Below are positions 15,258 to 46,189 of a stretch of 64,000 nucleotides of DNA, piece by piece. This DNA comes from a virus: the IMG/VR virus record IMGVR_UViG_3300008113_000003, positions 1-64,000 of that record; one strand, written 5' to 3'. The notes under the pieces are model-generated. The model had not been told where the DNA came from and did no database searches. It saw only the letters and a list, made by a program, of their open reading frames with translations. Each line of letters opens with the position of its first letter. Within the stretch, counting starts at the first letter, position 1. The position numbers and the translations under genes are program-made.

Positions 15258-15946
15258 GCGTATTGTGTTCTTAATAATTTAACGATGTCCATAGCATCAT
15301 CAATTGCGTTATGGGTAACGTGTGGATCCATCTTTGCACGCTCTTTACAAAGTGACAGCCCTGGGATAGCCTCATCATTCTTCCAATCAACAAATAGAAT
15401 TGACGGATCGATTGTTCTACCTCTAGCTTTCAACACTTGCTTCCATCTTGGTAATCTCTCCAAGAACTTATTATCGAAGTTAGCGAAGTTCTTACCAGCA
15501 CCGTTAAAGTAATACGGTTTCATCTTGGATGTCAATGCTGGGTAAGTCTTACCGTTAATCACCTCAACCACTCTATTCTGATAAAGAGGGTTAAAAGTAT
15601 CGGGACCGCCATCCAAAGCTTTGTGATCATATAAGAAATGGAAGATTCGTCTGGTGACATCTTCTTCATAAAGATATTCACGACCAGTTTTTTCCACTAT
15701 CTCAGCCTTAGCCTCTGGAGTCTTAGCTATTTTATAACTAAGGATATCAGAGATGAGTTCTTTGTTCATATTAAGAGCAAAGATTTCACCCTCAATACGT
15801 TCACGTATGATTGCGATTTCGAGTTTAGGTAACTCGTCAAACGGTTTCAAATTATTGGTGTCCTCAACAACCAATCCGATTGATAATGTTTGAGTATTCT
15901 CGTTATCCAAACCTGTTGTTTCTATGTCAATGCTTACGTATATCAT
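15254..15946 (-). CDS. DnaQ-like 3'-5' exonuclease
   Basis: 230 residues. VSIDIETTGLD is exonuclease motif I; GKNFANFDNKFLERL is motif II; and VTHNAIDDAMDIVKLL is motif III of DEDDh type (HNAxDD). Resembles RNase T/oligoribonuclease-like and proofreading exonucleases. In this neighbourhood trimming of RNA 3' ends is the attractive role; DNA degradation is equally possible. ATGA overlap with the HAD gene and a one-base overlap with the ligase gene. Confidence 0.8.
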   Translation of the reverse strand: MIYVSIDIETTGLDNENTQTLSIGLVVEDTNNLKPFDELPKLEIAIIRERIEGEIFALNMNKELISDILSYKIAKTPEAKAEIVEKTGREYLYEEDVTRRIFHFLYDHKALDGGPDTFNPLYQNRVVEVINGKTYPALTSKMKPYYFNGAGKNFANFDNKFLERLPRWKQVLKARGRTIDPSILFVDWKNDEAIPGLSLCKERAKMDPHVTHNAIDDAMDIVKLLRTQYA

Positions 15947-16968
15947 TACTTTTCGTTTTTTAATAAGAATTTATTTGAAATAGCTTTGAAGCTTACAGTT
16001 CTGTCCATGGTTCTGAACACAACACCTTCTCGATCAAATCTGTCGTTAAGTACTGACTTACCATCAGCAAACGCCAAACACTCATCGATTGTTTGTGGTA
16101 ACTTCATTGTCAAGTTAGTTAACATCGGAACAATCTCCAATTTAAACTGATGTTCAAATAAAGCTAAGAACATTGGTAAACCATAGTAAGTTTGAGAATC
16201 GATATCAAAGGCGTTGAAGAATCTAACGGTATGGCCCTTAATCTTATATGGGTTACCCTGAATACCTTCTCCGATTAACTCACCTTGTATGGCCAAGTTC
16301 CGTCCATTCTCACGTAACTTTTCTTCAAGTTTTAACTCACGAGCCACCTTCCAGAAAGTATTACCTTCAGTCTCCTCAAGGTCTAAGTTTCTAGAACAAA
16401 CACCAAAGACATCACCATTCAAATAGAATGTTGCGGAGCTACCATCAAGTTTTTCGGTTACATAGAAATCCAAACCTTCCTCAACCCATTTTGCGTAGTC
16501 TTTGGTCAAGTTCTGTACACGCTCCTCATCTGTCTTGCGTAAGAAACCTGGGAAGTTACCACGAACCTTACCAGCAAGTTCAGCTGGAATAGGTGGTTCA
16601 TATTTAACGATACCCAATCTCTCAGTAACATCAAGACCCTCATAAGCTGTCCAACCAAAGTCCCCAAAGATACTTATAGGTAAGATCAAACCTTGTGAAA
16701 CTTGCCCACGAAGTCTGATTGTTTTAAGACGGAAACCTTCTTGGTCACCCATTCTCTTAAATGAACTCTTACGTAAGAACTCAAACTCTTCCCTAACGGG
16801 TAAAAACGAGTCGATCTCACAGTAAACTACATAGTCACCAACTTTGTGACCAACATTCTTTGCAACAACAACATCCCAGTTGTTGATACGTGCAACTTCA
16901 ATAGCATCAGCGCCTTCAATAGGTCTGATATCGGCTATTACTTGTATGCTTGCTAACTTTCTTTCCAT
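15946..16968 (-). CDS. RNA ligase, DRB0094 type
   Basis: 340 residues. An N-terminal OB-like domain (residues 1-100, ending GLILPISIF) precedes the nucleotidyltransferase domain. YVTEKLDGSSATFYL is motif I (KxDG, Lys about residue 176), IQGELIGEGIQG is motif IIIa-like (GE), REGVVFRT is motif IV and VSFKAIS is motif V. The domain order matches the Deinococcus DRB0094 RNA ligase family, which seals 3'-OH/5'-phosphate ends. One of two RNA ligases in the island. Confidence 0.85.
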   Translation of the reverse strand: MERKLASIQVIADIRPIEGADAIEVARINNWDVVVAKNVGHKVGDYVVYCEIDSFLPVREEFEFLRKSSFKRMGDQEGFRLKTIRLRGQVSQGLILPISIFGDFGWTAYEGLDVTERLGIVKYEPPIPAELAGKVRGNFPGFLRKTDEERVQNLTKDYAKWVEEGLDFYVTEKLDGSSATFYLNGDVFGVCSRNLDLEETEGNTFWKVARELKLEEKLRENGRNLAIQGELIGEGIQGNPYKIKGHTVRFFNAFDIDSQTYYGLPMFLALFEHQFKLEIVPMLTNLTMKLPQTIDECLAFADGKSVLNDRFDREGVVFRTMDRTVSFKAISNKFLLKNEK

Positions 16969-17252
16969 TCTTTTTTATATTTTAATTCCCAATGTTTTCT
17001 GTATTCTCTAACATTAATCATTCTGATTGGGTATTCCCAATAACGGTCTTCATGCCAAATAGTAATAAACAAAACAAGTGTTGATGGTGGGACGTGACTT
17101 TCTTTTGCCCACTTAAACAATTGTTTTATATTACCCTTTTGTCTTATCTTCTTAGCAAAGGTAGGAAAATCACAATCCCAAACCATCGGGAATGTGTTTA
17201 ATATACCTGAGCCAACACCCTTATAACCTATGTTATGAATAACTTGTTTCAT
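16953..17252 (-). CDS. Unknown 99-residue basic protein
   Basis: Trp- and Lys-rich protein (FKWAKESHVPP, IWHEDRYWEYPI, WELKYKKEWKES). It overlaps the RNA ligase start by 16 bp and lies 1 bp from the kinase gene, so it is embedded in the RNA-repair operon. No family recognised. Confidence 0.5.
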   Translation of the reverse strand: MKQVIHNIGYKGVGSGILNTFPMVWDCDFPTFAKKIRQKGNIKQLFKWAKESHVPPSTLVLFITIWHEDRYWEYPIRMINVREYRKHWELKYKKEWKES

Positions 17253-17253
17253 C

Positions 17254-17670
17254 TTATAATTTAACCTCGAAACGATCCTTCATCGCTTGTAGTTTATCCT
17301 CTGGTACACCATGTTCATTAACACCACCATGTCTGTTCTCAACAATGATACTGAATACTTTATAGTTCCATTGTTTTGCTAAAGCATAGTACGGTTCCAT
17401 CTCCCACTCCTGTGTGAATGTGTTTGATACTATGATTGTGCTGTTATGGCCAGCAGTGTAGTTCACTAACATTGCTCGCTCAACACTATTTTGACACCAC
17501 TTATGTGCATCCTTTATTTTAGCTGGGTCAAATTTATAAACCCCGTCTTCCATGAAGTACATGTCGGCTTCAAAATGTGCGTAGCCAGACCCACCTGCCC
17601 CCAATAGTTTGGCAGTTGTGCTCTTACCAGATCCTGGTATTCCTCTTACTAATATTAATTCTTTACTCAT
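17254..17670 (-). CDS. P-loop (poly)nucleotide kinase
   Basis: 138 residues. ILVRGIPGSGKSTTAKLL is the Walker A motif; FEADMYF supplies the catalytic Asp; and HNSTIIVSNTF matches the usual strand before the lid. It is the size of the kinase domain of T4 Pnkp or AAA_33 kinases, without a phosphatase domain. Together with neighbouring HAD phosphatases and ligases it completes an end-healing set (5'-kinase plus 3'-phosphatase). RNA specificity is inferred from context. Confidence 0.75.
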   Translation of the reverse strand: MSKELILVRGIPGSGKSTTAKLLGAGGSGYAHFEADMYFMEDGVYKFDPAKIKDAHKWCQNSVERAMLVNYTAGHNSTIIVSNTFTQEWEMEPYYALAKQWNYKVFSIIVENRHGGVNEHGVPEDKLQAMKDRFEVKL

Positions 17671-18298
17671 GATGGTCGTATGCGATCATTGATCTTTTTT
17701 CTCTTTTTTCCATTAACTTCAGGATGTCTTTTAATTCGTATGGCTCCATCCCGTTTGAACCATCCATTCCAACGTCCATCATCTTACCTGGGCCGAATTT
17801 CAAATGGGCTGGCAAGTGAACGTGTCCGTGCAAGTGGATAACACCTTGGTTAAGGTCATGCCAAGACGCAATAGGAAAATGGCACAATACCATTCTATGA
17901 ACGTCATGGGAGCCACCCTTATCGACTTTAAGCGTCAGGTAATGGTATTTACTCACAGAAGCGAATAAGCCCTGTATATCCTCTTTATTTCGATCGATGT
18001 GGTGATCATGATTACCAAGCACCAAGTGGATGTTTTGACACATAATTCTGTGTCGAAGTTCAGCGATTCTTTCAAACCCACCAAACGACCAGTCACCTAA
18101 GTGAAATAGGATATCGTCTGGGCCAACATTGTTGTTGATCGCATTCACAATTGCAGCGTTCATCTTATCCAAAGATTCAAAATCTCTGGTCTTACCCTCA
18201 TCTGGCCAATTAGATGTTGCACGGCAAATATTGCTGTGTCCGTAATGTGTATCCGATGTGAACCATACCTTTTGGTTCCTTCCTACTTGTAGTTTCAT
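17663..18298 (-). CDS. Calcineurin-like metallophosphoesterase
   Basis: 211 residues from the ATG at 18298. Motifs: VWFTSDTHYGHSNI (DxH), LFHLGDWSFGG (GD), HLVLGNHDHH (GNHD), VLCHFPI and HLHGHVH (GHVH). A single-domain phosphoesterase of a type common in phages. Within an RNA-repair operon it could open 2',3'-cyclic phosphates. The upstream ATG at 18364 is rejected because a TATATTTG promoter ends 4 nt before 18298. Confidence 0.8.
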   Translation of the reverse strand: MKLQVGRNQKVWFTSDTHYGHSNICRATSNWPDEGKTRDFESLDKMNAAIVNAINNNVGPDDILFHLGDWSFGGFERIAELRHRIMCQNIHLVLGNHDHHIDRNKEDIQGLFASVSKYHYLTLKVDKGGSHDVHRMVLCHFPIASWHDLNQGVIHLHGHVHLPAHLKFGPGKMMDVGMDGSNGMEPYELKDILKLMEKREKRSMIAYDHHE

Positions 18299-18311
18299 TT
18301 TGCAAATATAA

Positions 18312-18563
18312 TTAAAAATAATCATTACACCAAATTGGTGTCTTTTCTCCCACATACCCGCCATGGATATTGTAGTAGTAATGCTCTAAAGCATCTTCTT
18401 CAGTCATCTCATCATTAATGATAAGTATATCGATAATTTTACTCATGGAGTAGATAAGTCTACCAGTTTGGTCATCATAACCTATGATAGCCTCATCTAA
18501 TCCATCAGCTTTTAAGAACTCATCCTCTGGATTCTGTTCAATTATTAAATCTAGCATGCTCAT
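18312..18563 (-). CDS. Unknown 83-residue acidic protein
   Basis: Starts MSMLDLIIEQNPEDEFLKADG. The start at 18563 makes an exact ATGA overlap with the stop of the RNA ligase gene. GYDDQTGRLIYS and EEDALEHYYYNIHGGYVGEKTPIW look like a conserved small phage family, function unknown. Confidence 0.55.
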   Translation of the reverse strand: MSMLDLIIEQNPEDEFLKADGLDEAIIGYDDQTGRLIYSMSKIIDILIINDEMTEEDALEHYYYNIHGGYVGEKTPIWCNDYF

Positions 18564-19630
18564 ATTTTTCTGTATTCTGGATAAATTAAGTCCCAAATTA
18601 TTTTACTGCAATCTCTTTTGTCTAACATTGTAAACAAAATAGACGGGTGCTTGTATTGCAAAGCATATTGAGCAAAGGTTGCTCTATACTTTTCTTTTGG
18701 TACATTGTGGGTTCCCAAACCTTTCACTATTGTATTAAAAATCCAAGTGTACTCCTTTTCAAGGGTTTTAAACTGAGAAGTTAACTCATCTACATAGATT
18801 TTAATCTTTGCATGAAATTCATCTGGTACGTCAACCAATGAAGCCATTAAATCTTCACCGTTGGATAATGTTTCCCAGATGTTTCTTGTCGAAAAGTTTG
18901 TCATGATTTTGTGTAATCTAACATACTCCTCAAACTTGATCTTAACACGATAACCAGATGGGTAGAATCTAATAACAAACCCCTCTTTACCAGATTCATT
19001 TAAATTTTGGTATCTTTTAAATAAATCTTCAGTTAATGGATCTATCGAAGTCCAAACAACATCCTCATAGTCTATACCAGAAGCTCTAAACATAGATTTT
19101 GCTGTCGCCCAATTCAACTCACCCTCAGGTGTTGTTGCACCAAGAAATGTTATCATATCTTCACCATAGTCAACAACAATCCTGTTCTCAGGATAGATGA
19201 TCTCACATAGGTAAGTAACATTAGGGATAAAACGTTTTAAATCGTATTTTGATTTAAGAATTTCCAAACCTTTAACAGATTGGTCAGATGTAAATGAACC
19301 CCTTGTTGCTAATAACCATTCACCATTATAGTTAAATAAAATACCCAAAGAGCCGTCCATTTTTTCTTGGACATAAACATACTCGCTATCCCATGGAATG
19401 ATATCCTTATCAATAACTTCTTCATAGTTAAAGAATTTTGGGAATGGTTTAGCAATCACAGCACCAGAATCATCAGTGACAAGTCCACGGCATGCAATAG
19501 TAACCTCATCCCATAACATTTCGTACTGCACCTTTTCGGTGTAGTTCCAAATTGTCAATGGAAGAGTTGGGTGTGTTTGTTTATACAACAACCCATCCTC
19601 GTGATACTTGTTTAATGTTTCTAAGTTCAT
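18560..19630 (-). CDS. rnlA: T4 Rnl1-like RNA ligase
   Basis: 356 residues. IACRGLVTD precedes YVQEKMDGSLGILF, the KxDGS adenylation motif of T4 RNA ligase 1 (Lys about 112); YLCEIIYPENRIVVDYG (motif IIIa), EGFVIRFYPSGYRVKIKFEEYVRLH (motifs IV and V) follow, and a helical C-terminal domain ends the protein. T4 Rnl1 repairs tRNA cut in the anticodon loop, working with Pnkp. Here it could repair host-cut tRNAs or join the permuted or interrupted phage tRNAs. Confidence 0.9.
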   Translation of the reverse strand: MNLETLNKYHEDGLLYKQTHPTLPLTIWNYTEKVQYEMLWDEVTIACRGLVTDDSGAVIAKPFPKFFNYEEVIDKDIIPWDSEYVYVQEKMDGSLGILFNYNGEWLLATRGSFTSDQSVKGLEILKSKYDLKRFIPNVTYLCEIIYPENRIVVDYGEDMITFLGATTPEGELNWATAKSMFRASGIDYEDVVWTSIDPLTEDLFKRYQNLNESGKEGFVIRFYPSGYRVKIKFEEYVRLHKIMTNFSTRNIWETLSNGEDLMASLVDVPDEFHAKIKIYVDELTSQFKTLEKEYTWIFNTIVKGLGTHNVPKEKYRATFAQYALQYKHPSILFTMLDKRDCSKIIWDLIYPEYRKI

Positions 19631-40885: not shown

Positions 40886-41007
40886 TAGTCAGGACAGGAC
40901 TTGAACCTGTATTCTCTATTATTATCACCAAGTTTCGGTTACATTGTTTCTGTTTGCTTGGTATAGAGTTTAGGATACTTTCAGCGTCTACATTCCGCCA
41001 CCTGACT
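40886..41007 (-). tRNA. tRNA-like gene with expanded core (Leu-like ends)
   Basis: Acceptor AGTCAGG/CCTGACT, D arm GCG-GAATGTAGA-CGC as in tRNA-Leu, T arm ACAGG-TTCAAGT-CCTGT, discriminator A, no CCA. In place of anticodon and variable arms is a 70-nt irregular hairpin (GTAT/ATAC, CTCTAT/ATAGAG, ACCAAG/CTTGGT). About 40 nt longer than a normal tRNA-Leu. Confidence 0.55.
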
Positions 41008-41764: not shown

Positions 41765-41879
41765 CGGGGATGAGAGGAATCGAACCTCTGGTTCAGGCTT
41801 GAGATGCAAAATTATATGCTGTATGGAATCTCATCAGATTCACTTTTTTTACAGCGTGTTACCACTACACCACACCCCC
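41765..41879 (-). tRNA. tRNA-like gene with inserted hairpins (Gln/Gly-like ends)
   Basis: Acceptor GGGGGTG/CATCCCC, D arm GTG-TAGTGGTAA-CAC, T arm AGAGG-TTCGATT-CCTCT, discriminator G. After the D arm CTGTA/TACAG closes a 26-nt loop that contains GAATC-TGATGA-GATTC, and a further 24 nt lies before the T arm. 115 nt in all, about 40 more than a normal tRNA. Anticodon not assignable. Confidence 0.55.
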
Positions 41880-42917: not shown

Positions 42918-42979
42918 AAATTTCGGAATGCGTTTTTTGTCAAAGTAAAAGTTTAAGATAAAATACAGGATGAATTGTA

Positions 42980-43071
42980 CGTGCTCTAACCAACTGAGCT
43001 ACTCTGAACGTGCCACTTAAGGCTGTGTTCAAAGGTTGGATTCGAACCAACGACCACGAGGTTAACAGCCT
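42980..43071 (-). tRNA. Circularly permuted tRNA-Asn(GTT)
   Basis: Read on the minus strand, the 3' half comes first (43071-43026: AGG-CTGTTAA-CCTCG, variable loop, T arm GTTGG-TTCGAAT-CCAAC, acceptor CTTTGAAC, A). A 16-nt spacer with a GCC/GGC hairpin follows (43025-43010), then the 5' half (43009-42980: GTTCAGAG, D arm GCTCAGTTGGTTAGAGC, A, CG). Joining the outer ends gives a 76-nt tRNA with a perfect anticodon stem CGAGG/CCTCG and an 8-bp acceptor stem. Outer flanks 43099-43109 and 42955-42965 (11 bp) plus 43090-43095 and 42967-42972 (6 bp) are complementary and would hold the ends together. CCA is not encoded. Confidence 0.8.
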
Positions 43072-43111
43072 AAAGAAATATGCAGAAACCATCCTCATTA
43101 TTTTATCTTTG

Positions 43112-44599: not shown

Positions 44600-46189
44600 T
44601 TATATTTTAAATGTGGTGAAACCTGTTTCACCGTTGTTGTCTTTAATAAAATTAATATGTTGTGCTCTCCCATCTTTATGGATAATCACATGCGATTGTA
44701 ACCATGAGCTTGGGCCAATATTATAACCAACTCTTAGTTTTGTTGAGGTACCAACCGCTAAAGCACCGTCTTTTCTCCCTGGTGAATGGTAATGACCAAC
44801 AATGATCTTCGTGTTTAGTGTTCTAAACTGATTTAGAGACCCTCTGCTGCCATTTGAACCCACATCGCCATGTTGTCCTAGTTCCCAATCTTTAACAATG
44901 TAAGAAGCGTTCCTATTCAATGTGATGAACTTAGGAAACTTCTGGTTAATTATCTCTGGTATAACACCTTTAACATCACCTTTAGCGTATTGTCTCAGAA
45001 GCATTGCGGAGTATTCCATATACATCAAAGAGTTTTTACTTGTTGGTTGTCTTTTCCAATCCTCATTCTTTAACCATCGATCTAAAAAGTCATCATGGTT
45101 ACTTCTAACAATAACAACATTTTTATAATCTCTAAAAGACTCCAACCCCTCGAGCATATTATTTATCTCGTTTTCAACTGAGTTGGTGCCGTTCATTTCT
45201 TTCGCAAACTGAATAAACGGATCTTTCATTTCATGGTGGCTAATTGAGTTACCGTCAAACACGTCATGTAGGATAACATGTTCTGGTTTCATTTTACCCA
45301 ATAATTCATGTGTCTTATCAATCACATCTTGATCATGATGTCCATAGTGAATGTCACCAAACACAATTGCTGACAATGAATCAACTTTACTCACCTGACC
45401 ACCCTCAACTTTATGACAAAGATCGGTAAAATTACCAGTTCTATCATGTGCTGTTACTTGTCTAACATAGAATGTATCCTCATCTTTAATCTCAACGATC
45501 GCAAAACCATATGTGTGGTGAAACTCACCTTTCTTACCAGCTTTTGAATCCGTGTAGTTTAATTTGGTTACAGCGCCTGTGGTTAACATCATTTTTGGTT
45601 TATTACCCTCAAGAACTGAAATCATTTCAAGCTGTACTTTCGGTGCGCCAAAGATGCACGAATTAATACCACTCACACCTTGCAAACCGCTCATTGGGTT
45701 GGTTGCTGTTGGTTGGATCTTAAAGTCGGACATGATTGACACATATTTGTGCACATCATGTCTATTCGCATCCAAATAAGGTACAACAGCGCTGTCCCAC
45801 TCTTCATGGTCTTTATCTGTAAACACTGATGTTGGGTTTTTGTAACGTCCAGCAATAACGTGTATATCAGCACCTAAAAAGTCAGCATATGCTTTTATAT
45901 TTTCAAAGAATGGTTTATGTACTGGTGTGTCATTCTGAGCCCAAGTAATAAGGAACATTTTTTGTTCTTTATTTGTTTGTCTCTGCTTAGCCATCAGATA
46001 TTGTTCTGACTCAACCTCAACCTTTTCTTTAAAGTTTAATTTTTCAGAACACCATTTTCTAACTGTTCTTTCGGATTTACCAAATAAATCCATAAGCAAT
46101 TTCATTCTATCATCCCAAGATAAATCCTTGTCGGTGTAAATCTCTCTTGCTTTGTTAATTTGTTGTTCTGTTAAATCTTTAAATTTCAT
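44600..46189 (-). CDS. T5 A1-like metallophosphoesterase
   Basis: 529 residues. An N-terminal helix-turn-helix-like part (DLFGKSERTVRKWCSEKL) leads to a unique domain (FLITWAQNDTPVHKPFFENIKAYADFL), then a calcineurin-like domain: IVFGDIHYGHHD, ILHDVFDGNS, VIVRSNHDDFLDRW, IIVGHYHSPG. The layout recalls the T5 A1 protein needed for host DNA breakdown and completion of DNA transfer. The A1 link is from memory of the family; the phosphoesterase part is certain. Confidence 0.65.
   Translation of the reverse strand: MKFKDLTEQQINKAREIYTDKDLSWDDRMKLLMDLFGKSERTVRKWCSEKLNFKEKVEVESEQYLMAKQRQTNKEQKMFLITWAQNDTPVHKPFFENIKAYADFLGADIHVIAGRYKNPTSVFTDKDHEEWDSAVVPYLDANRHDVHKYVSIMSDFKIQPTATNPMSGLQGVSGINSCIFGAPKVQLEMISVLEGNKPKMMLTTGAVTKLNYTDSKAGKKGEFHHTYGFAIVEIKDEDTFYVRQVTAHDRTGNFTDLCHKVEGGQVSKVDSLSAIVFGDIHYGHHDQDVIDKTHELLGKMKPEHVILHDVFDGNSISHHEMKDPFIQFAKEMNGTNSVENEINNMLEGLESFRDYKNVVIVRSNHDDFLDRWLKNEDWKRQPTSKNSLMYMEYSAMLLRQYAKGDVKGVIPEIINQKFPKFITLNRNASYIVKDWELGQHGDVGSNGSRGSLNQFRTLNTKIIVGHYHSPGRKDGALAVGTSTKLRVGYNIGPSSWLQSHVIIHKDGRAQHINFIKDNNGETGFTTFKI

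Follow-up and report, generated by a model that had tools for sequence, protein, structure and literature searches.

Permuted tRNA genes, in which the 3′ half precedes the 5′ half, the outer ends are joined and the inner spacer is removed, are otherwise known, to our knowledge, only from some algae and archaea. In the red and green algae and the Thermofilum-type archaea that carry them, the junctions form bulge-helix-bulge (BHB) structures that are cut by the tRNA-splicing endonuclease. A comparable arrangement is used in permuted intron-exon (PIE) group I constructs for making circular RNA, where intron halves flank the permuted exon and splicing circularises it. The bacterial Y RNA YrlA (RF02553) likewise has a permuted tRNA-like core whose acceptor stem is closed, together with an outer helix, and in T4 the Pnkp/Rnl1 pathway repairs cut tRNAs by means of a phage kinase, phosphatase and Rnl1-type ligase. 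Introns in phage tRNAs themselves have been called enigmatic in Lak megaphages, with mechanism unknown and, by description, in normal gene order only (Devoto et al. 2019, PMC6784885).

Here we describe a 64,000-nt stretch of viral DNA (the window) whose minus strand carries, at 43109-42955, a tRNA 3′ half ahead of its 5′ half. Unlike PIE constructs, this gene and its relatives are natural and use an intron of about 50 nt that is not of group I and sits in tRNA anticodon stems; unlike YrlA, they keep a complete split anticodon arm together with intron ends. Our search of the open-access literature, with subscription papers and preprints largely outside its scope, found no permuted tRNA genes in phages.

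Layout of the permuted tRNA locus

The architecture is established by base-by-base reading, which confirmed the permuted order, the 28|29 junction and the perfect CGAGG/CCTCG stem given in the initial annotation. From its upstream end the minus strand reads helix strand, TTCTGCATATTTCTTT, AGG-CTGTTAA-CCTCG, TGGTC, T arm, CTTTGAA, spacer, TTCAGAG, TA, D arm, ACG, TACAATT and helix strand (Table 1). Joining G28 (42980) to A29 (43071) yields a complete tRNA-Asn(GUU)-like cloverleaf with the anticodon hairpin CGAGG-CTGTTAA-CCTCG, in which C27-G28 of the downstream half completes the stem across the junction, and the anticodon loop has GUU, U33 and A37 as in functional tRNA-Asn. The acceptor stem consists of 7 bp and a G-1:C73 pair, so the 8 bp first counted hold if this pair is included; the spacer, first given as 16 nt, measured 19 nt, or 17 nt with G-1:C73 assigned to the stem. 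Neither ARAGORN nor the Rfam tRNA model reported the permuted gene.

Table 1 Coordinates of the permuted tRNA gene, the neighbouring intron-containing tRNA and the RNA-end enzymes in the window
Feature	Position	Strand	Basis or remark
RNA ligase, Rnl2-like	15946-16968	-	PF09414, phrog_968
P-loop kinase, candidate RNA 5′-end kinase	17254-17670	-	AAA_33; weaker match to polynucleotide kinase phrog_505
Calcineurin-like phosphoesterase, candidate 3′-end phosphatase	17663-18364	-	
RNA ligase, T4 Rnl1-like	18560-19630	-	PF09511, phrog_562
Normal-order tRNA, Glu-like, anticodon CTC, with the same intron type	41765-41879	-	missed by ARAGORN
Intron of the Glu-like tRNA, TAAAAAAAGTGAATCTGATGAGATTCCATACAGCATATAATTTT	about 41851-41808	-	one mismatch in restored stem
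Intron 3′ part (upstream flank)	43072-43109	-	base reading, fold; motif also in relatives and normal-order introns
Upstream flank helix strands	43109-43099 and 43095-43090	-	followed by TTCTGCATATTTCTTT
ACAGCAA-type motif region, TTCTGCATATTTCTTT	CTGCA at 43085-43081	-	runs to 3′ splice site 43072|43071
Exon 2 start: anticodon arm positions 29-43 (AGG CTGTTAA CCTCG, anticodon GTT) and variable loop TGGTC	43052-43071	-	base reading, covariation across junction
Anticodon arm	43071-43057	-	
Variable loop TGGTC	43056-43052	-	
T arm GTTGG-TTCGAAT-CCAAC	43035-43051	-	base reading, relatives
Acceptor stem 3′ strand CTTTGAA	43028-43034	-	
Spacer / acceptor cap CACAGCCTTAAGTGGCACG	43009-43027	-	extra pair C43027:G43009 and hairpin GCC-TTAAGT-GGC
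Acceptor stem 5′ strand TTCAGAG	43002-43008	-	
Exon 1 end: T8 A9, D arm, A26 C27 G28	42980-43001	-	5′ splice site 42980|42979
D arm	42999-42983	-	
A26 C27 G28	42982-42980	-	
Intron 5′ part (downstream flank): TACAATT, CATCCT, TATTTTATCTT	42955-42979	-	TATTTTATCTT is the second strand of the flank helix

The complementarity first noticed between the two flanks proved to be real, as the locus folds with a minimum free energy of -45.7 kcal/mol (z -2.96 vs shuffles). Relatives have not lost it; they keep the helix despite changed sequence, and the longest flank helix averages 9.4 vs 6.8 when flanks are swapped among members. These comparisons support a role in which the helix would hold the precursor ends together.

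Several other members of the tRNA array in the window are unusual. A 122-nt tRNA-Leu-like Rfam match at 40886-41007 (minus strand), missed by ARAGORN, may hold an insert of another kind, and a normal-order tRNA-Asn(GTT) at 41759-41688 (minus strand), reported by Rfam and likewise missed by ARAGORN, has a strange T arm (GGGATCTCGGAATTCCC). At 40800-40725 (minus strand) the 5′ half of a tRNA-Ile is duplicated in tandem, with AGTGATATAGCTCAATTGGTGAGAGCACATGC occurring twice; tandem half-duplications of this kind could seed permuted genes.

Conservation and covariation among related phages

IMG/VR searches and pattern scans recovered 67 distinct permuted genes with 25 anticodons, near-identical copies in one group being counted when the core differs; syntenic loci were reached via the neighbouring 529-aa gene (44600-46189). 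The order is thus more general than the initial annotation, which knew of no phage case, had supposed, and the assembly rearrangement it had considered is ruled out because the same order recurs in many independent contigs. The same permuted RNA was found in L001, L002 (with near copies), L008, L068 and L090, with different acceptor stems, caps and anticodons, while in L088, L093 and L094 the split anticodon stems AGC/GCT, ACA/TGT and TCC/GGA are each completed by a downstream C27-G28. Stem types across members include AGG/CCT, AGC/GCT, ACA/TGT, TCC/GGA, GCA/TGC and ATC/GAT, and these join to CG, CT, CC, GG or GC.

Covariation across the junction was evaluated in 51 geometry matches in fetched loci, selected on the T arm, the acceptor, the D arm and a TANAA after them, with anticodon pairing not used. 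In 44 of these, the three 29-31/39-41 pairs and the two 27-28/42-43 pairs are all present. Every match with hairpin and U33 (43/43) also pairs 27-28 with 42-43, vs a mean of 17.3 and a maximum of 27 cross-junction pairings of 43 when exon-1 ends were swapped (2000 shuffles), where the hairpin and U33 decided the variable-loop length (4 or 5), and CG after the D arm was fixed in some scan patterns but left free in other scans. Position 37 is a purine in all 43 and position 38 is A in 41 of them, and reversed or locally shuffled sequence gave no geometry matches. These results confirmed that the permuted order in phages is not due to chance.

In named phages, pooled blastn queries against 50,697 phage records at strict E-values found no permuted genes, and all of Vibrio phage D479 and part of GAP32 contained only normal-order intron tRNAs. 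Two permuted-looking matches in D479 and GAP32 look like ordinary tandem tRNAs, and the geometry test without a TANAA or motif filter therefore yields false positives. Most of the matches listed in a pattern scan of bacterial genomes are chance by estimate, and they were not counted as evidence.

The TTCAGAG body was also seen with different anticodon arms in L140, L245, L286 and the window, which suggests modular exchange of anticodon hairpins between phages.

A small intron shared with normal-order tRNA genes

Normal-order phage tRNAs interrupted at 28|29 share their intron ends with the flanks of the permuted genes. The phage tRNA intron begins with TANAA, continues with a hairpin and (T)ACAGCAA, and ends about 9 nt further on, with a total length of 38-57 nt for the main type; in a normal-order set of 31 picked by TANAA, its removal fully restores the stem in 23. 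Interrupted tRNAs of this type occur in cultured jumbo phages, including Cronobacter GAP32, Pectobacterium CBB, Xanthomonas XbC2, Vibrio D479, Serratia BF and Erwinia phages; the part of the published account of CBB that lists 33 tRNAs and rnlA does not describe tRNA introns (PMC5259590). One such gene, the Glu-like tRNA at 41879-41765, lies 1.1 kb from the permuted gene in the window, which itself has the TACAATT and TTCTGCATA ends and the flank helix at 28|29 that mark the intron family. The permuted genes carry the 5′ half of the intron downstream and the 3′ half upstream, and this swap around the exons suggests that the window locus and its relatives are natural permuted intron-exon tRNA genes. 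Since the flanks correspond to halves of an intron found at the same position in normal-order tRNAs, joining of the outer cuts, as the initial annotation proposed, is the most economical reading.

A second intron subtype, with a CTCCCGCAAGGG hairpin and the 3′ end GGGTTACTT, was found in L091, L092, L097, L101, L102 and L103. At L139 478-593, in Vibrio phage D479, the same intron motif apparently lies inside the anticodon loop; insertion is thus not confined to 28|29. A mini element at about 3600 of L034 (GGATGGTTACAGCAA...AAA-CTTTTAA-TTTGG...ACCATCC) places intron flanks around an anticodon hairpin and has no tRNA body.

Candidate enzymes for processing RNA ends are encoded in the window. The minus-strand segment 15254-19630 is a compact RNA repair cassette with an exonuclease-like protein, an Rnl2-like ligase, a PNK-like kinase, a phosphoesterase and an Rnl1-like ligase. 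Its genes at 15946-19630, which resemble those of T4 Pnkp/Rnl1 repair, plausibly form an end-healing and sealing set, although the role proposed here would be splicing and not repair. Of 23 carrier records, 16 had a PF09414 RNA ligase, and among the carriers tested for RtcB 9 had it; RtcB is encoded by the contigs of L091 and L103, carriers of the second subtype. Some carrier records, which may be fragments, had no ligase match to the models used (e.g. G017, G037). Because such ligase genes are frequent in large phages, they are not proof of a role in splicing, and the set is compatible with ligation of the RNA ends by protein.

The likeness to the algal and Thermofilum-type system does not extend beyond gene order and the joining of outer ends. 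PF01974, the tRNA-splicing endonuclease, was found in none of 27 carrier phage records, with a positive control recovering it in 4 archaea, and there is no general BHB: that geometry fits 9 of 67 members, vs a mean of 3.4 and a maximum of 8 in swapped controls, and does not fit the window member. The phage genes have a different conserved intron and acceptors that are often tetraloop-capped, and archaeal-type splicing was rejected on the absence of PF01974 from these records and of a general BHB. A group I intron was also rejected, given the absence of an Rfam match and the wrong terminal bases. The intron could instead be a small self-splicing or self-cleaving RNA of another kind, for which the strongly conserved TANAA, ACAGCAA and hairpin in only 38-57 nt, their occurrence in phages of very different hosts and the failure to find a common nuclease would speak; yet no known ribozyme in Rfam matched the intron, the group I rules of an exon-1-final U and an intron-final G are violated (exon 1 ends in G, T or C and the intron in T, A or C), and we know of no ribozyme of this size that splices, so that we regard a catalytic intron as quite unlikely.

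We favour, with a probability of roughly 0.6, a permuted intron-exon tRNA gene that is spliced to a circular tRNA-Asn(GUU)-like RNA. The small phage tRNA intron would sit at 28|29 of the anticodon stem with its hairpin loop opened, so that exon 2 is preceded by the 3′ half and exon 1 is followed by the 5′ half. Sequence and covariation show a transcript that folds as a tRNA core whose acceptor stem is capped, with the intron helix holding it closed; a nuclease or the intron RNA itself would cut at 43072|43071 and 42980|42979, and the outer ends would be joined, a task for which the RNA kinase, phosphatase and ligases encoded by the phage are plausible. A window transcript spliced as proposed for the normal-order genes would yield a circle of 92 nt, and carrier phages probably produce circular RNAs resembling tRNAs through splicing of an undescribed kind.

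Charged tRNA or closed mimic

In the predicted minimum-energy fold of the circular product, the full anticodon stem appears in 66 of 67 members, the window included. Whether such a circle would be opened bears on a competing reading, in which RNase P cuts at the acceptor 5′ side and 3′ processing and CCA addition produce an ordinary tRNA-Asn. The canonical anticodon loop CTGTTAA, the canonical D and T arms and the full cloverleaf agree with this, as do permuted genes that look like real tRNAs: a fitting discriminator and CCA open the spacer in L141 (Asn G73-CCA), L459 (Asp G73-CCA and Ile A73-CCA) and L192, and identity bases fit in L105 (Gly GCGGG, with U73) and L165 (Trp AGGGG, with G73). 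Part of the family is therefore probably opened and charged as tRNA. The discriminator of bacterial tRNA-Asn is normally G73, whereas position 73 of the window gene is C, ACAGCC comes next within a conserved hairpin, no CCA is encoded, and the structured cap includes G-1:C73; the cap hairpin GCC-TTAAGT-GGC corresponds to GTC-TTAAGT-GAC in L286, a compensatory change. The same TTCAGAG body carries the anticodon UAU (TAT) in L140, and another tRNA-Asn(GUU) match already exists at 41759-41688. Across the family, 12 of 16 four-nt acceptor caps are UNCG, GNRA or CUUG tetraloops (p 4e-13), and A34 starts 10 of 67 permuted anticodons vs 0 of 23 in normal-order genes, which together make the opening of the circle into charged tRNA-Asn less certain. 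An ordinary tRNA-Asn is accordingly a possible product of the window gene, though on the unlikely side, and the C73, the absence of CCA, the cap hairpin and the UAU on the same body make RNase P opening and 3′ trimming to a charged tRNA-Asn no more likely than a stable closed tRNA mimic. Of what the initial annotation put forward, the order, the junction and the end-holding helix stand, the joining of outer cuts is the preferred reading, and a functional tRNA-Asn product is less certain.

The RNA might also remain unspliced or closed as a mimic of the YrlA or Y RNA type, with the flank helix serving as a protein-binding stem. The shared order of T arm, capped acceptor and D arm and the sub-threshold Rfam YrlA matches to the window and other members point that way, but the RF02553 match, at 32.7 bits, lies below the gathering score of 69 and covers only model positions 24-84 of 114, a Ro60/TROVE gene was absent from 17/17 records searched, and an RNA of this type gives no reason to expect five anticodon-stem pairs spanning the junction, together with U33 and A37/A38, or an intron shared with tRNAs of normal order; we consider it improbable, and assignment to YrlA/Y RNA itself was rejected on the Rfam score and the lack of Ro60. 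That the locus is a functionless remnant, left when recombination stripped tandem tRNA copies of their outer halves, is highly improbable: the gene may plausibly have arisen by tandem duplication, and partly duplicated and odd tRNAs occur in the array, but the acceptor, anticodon and flank stems covary, and many contigs share the order, a fixed junction position and the intron ends. Pseudogene and assembly artefact were rejected on the same covariation and independent contigs.

Returning to splicing to a circular tRNA-like RNA, a closed mimic could possibly serve as a decoy for anticodon nucleases. The fullest form of this idea, an undescribed phage splicing system with an intron of about 50 nt, possibly a catalytic RNA, whose circular tRNA mimics, resistant to exonucleases and changing in anticodon, act as decoys for the anticodon nucleases of the host, is speculative and, taken as a whole, unlikely.

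That a large family of phage genes shares a small intron of a different kind implies a tRNA splicing route, other than the known one, in viruses that infect bacteria. The family gives the enigmatic phage tRNA introns of 2019 a concrete frame, with conserved motifs and the cultured phages GAP32, CBB and D479, and it indicates that a class of phage tRNA-like genes escapes tRNA finders. Closed tRNA circles, if they are made, would add an unusual candidate to the weapons used in the conflict over anticodon nucleases.
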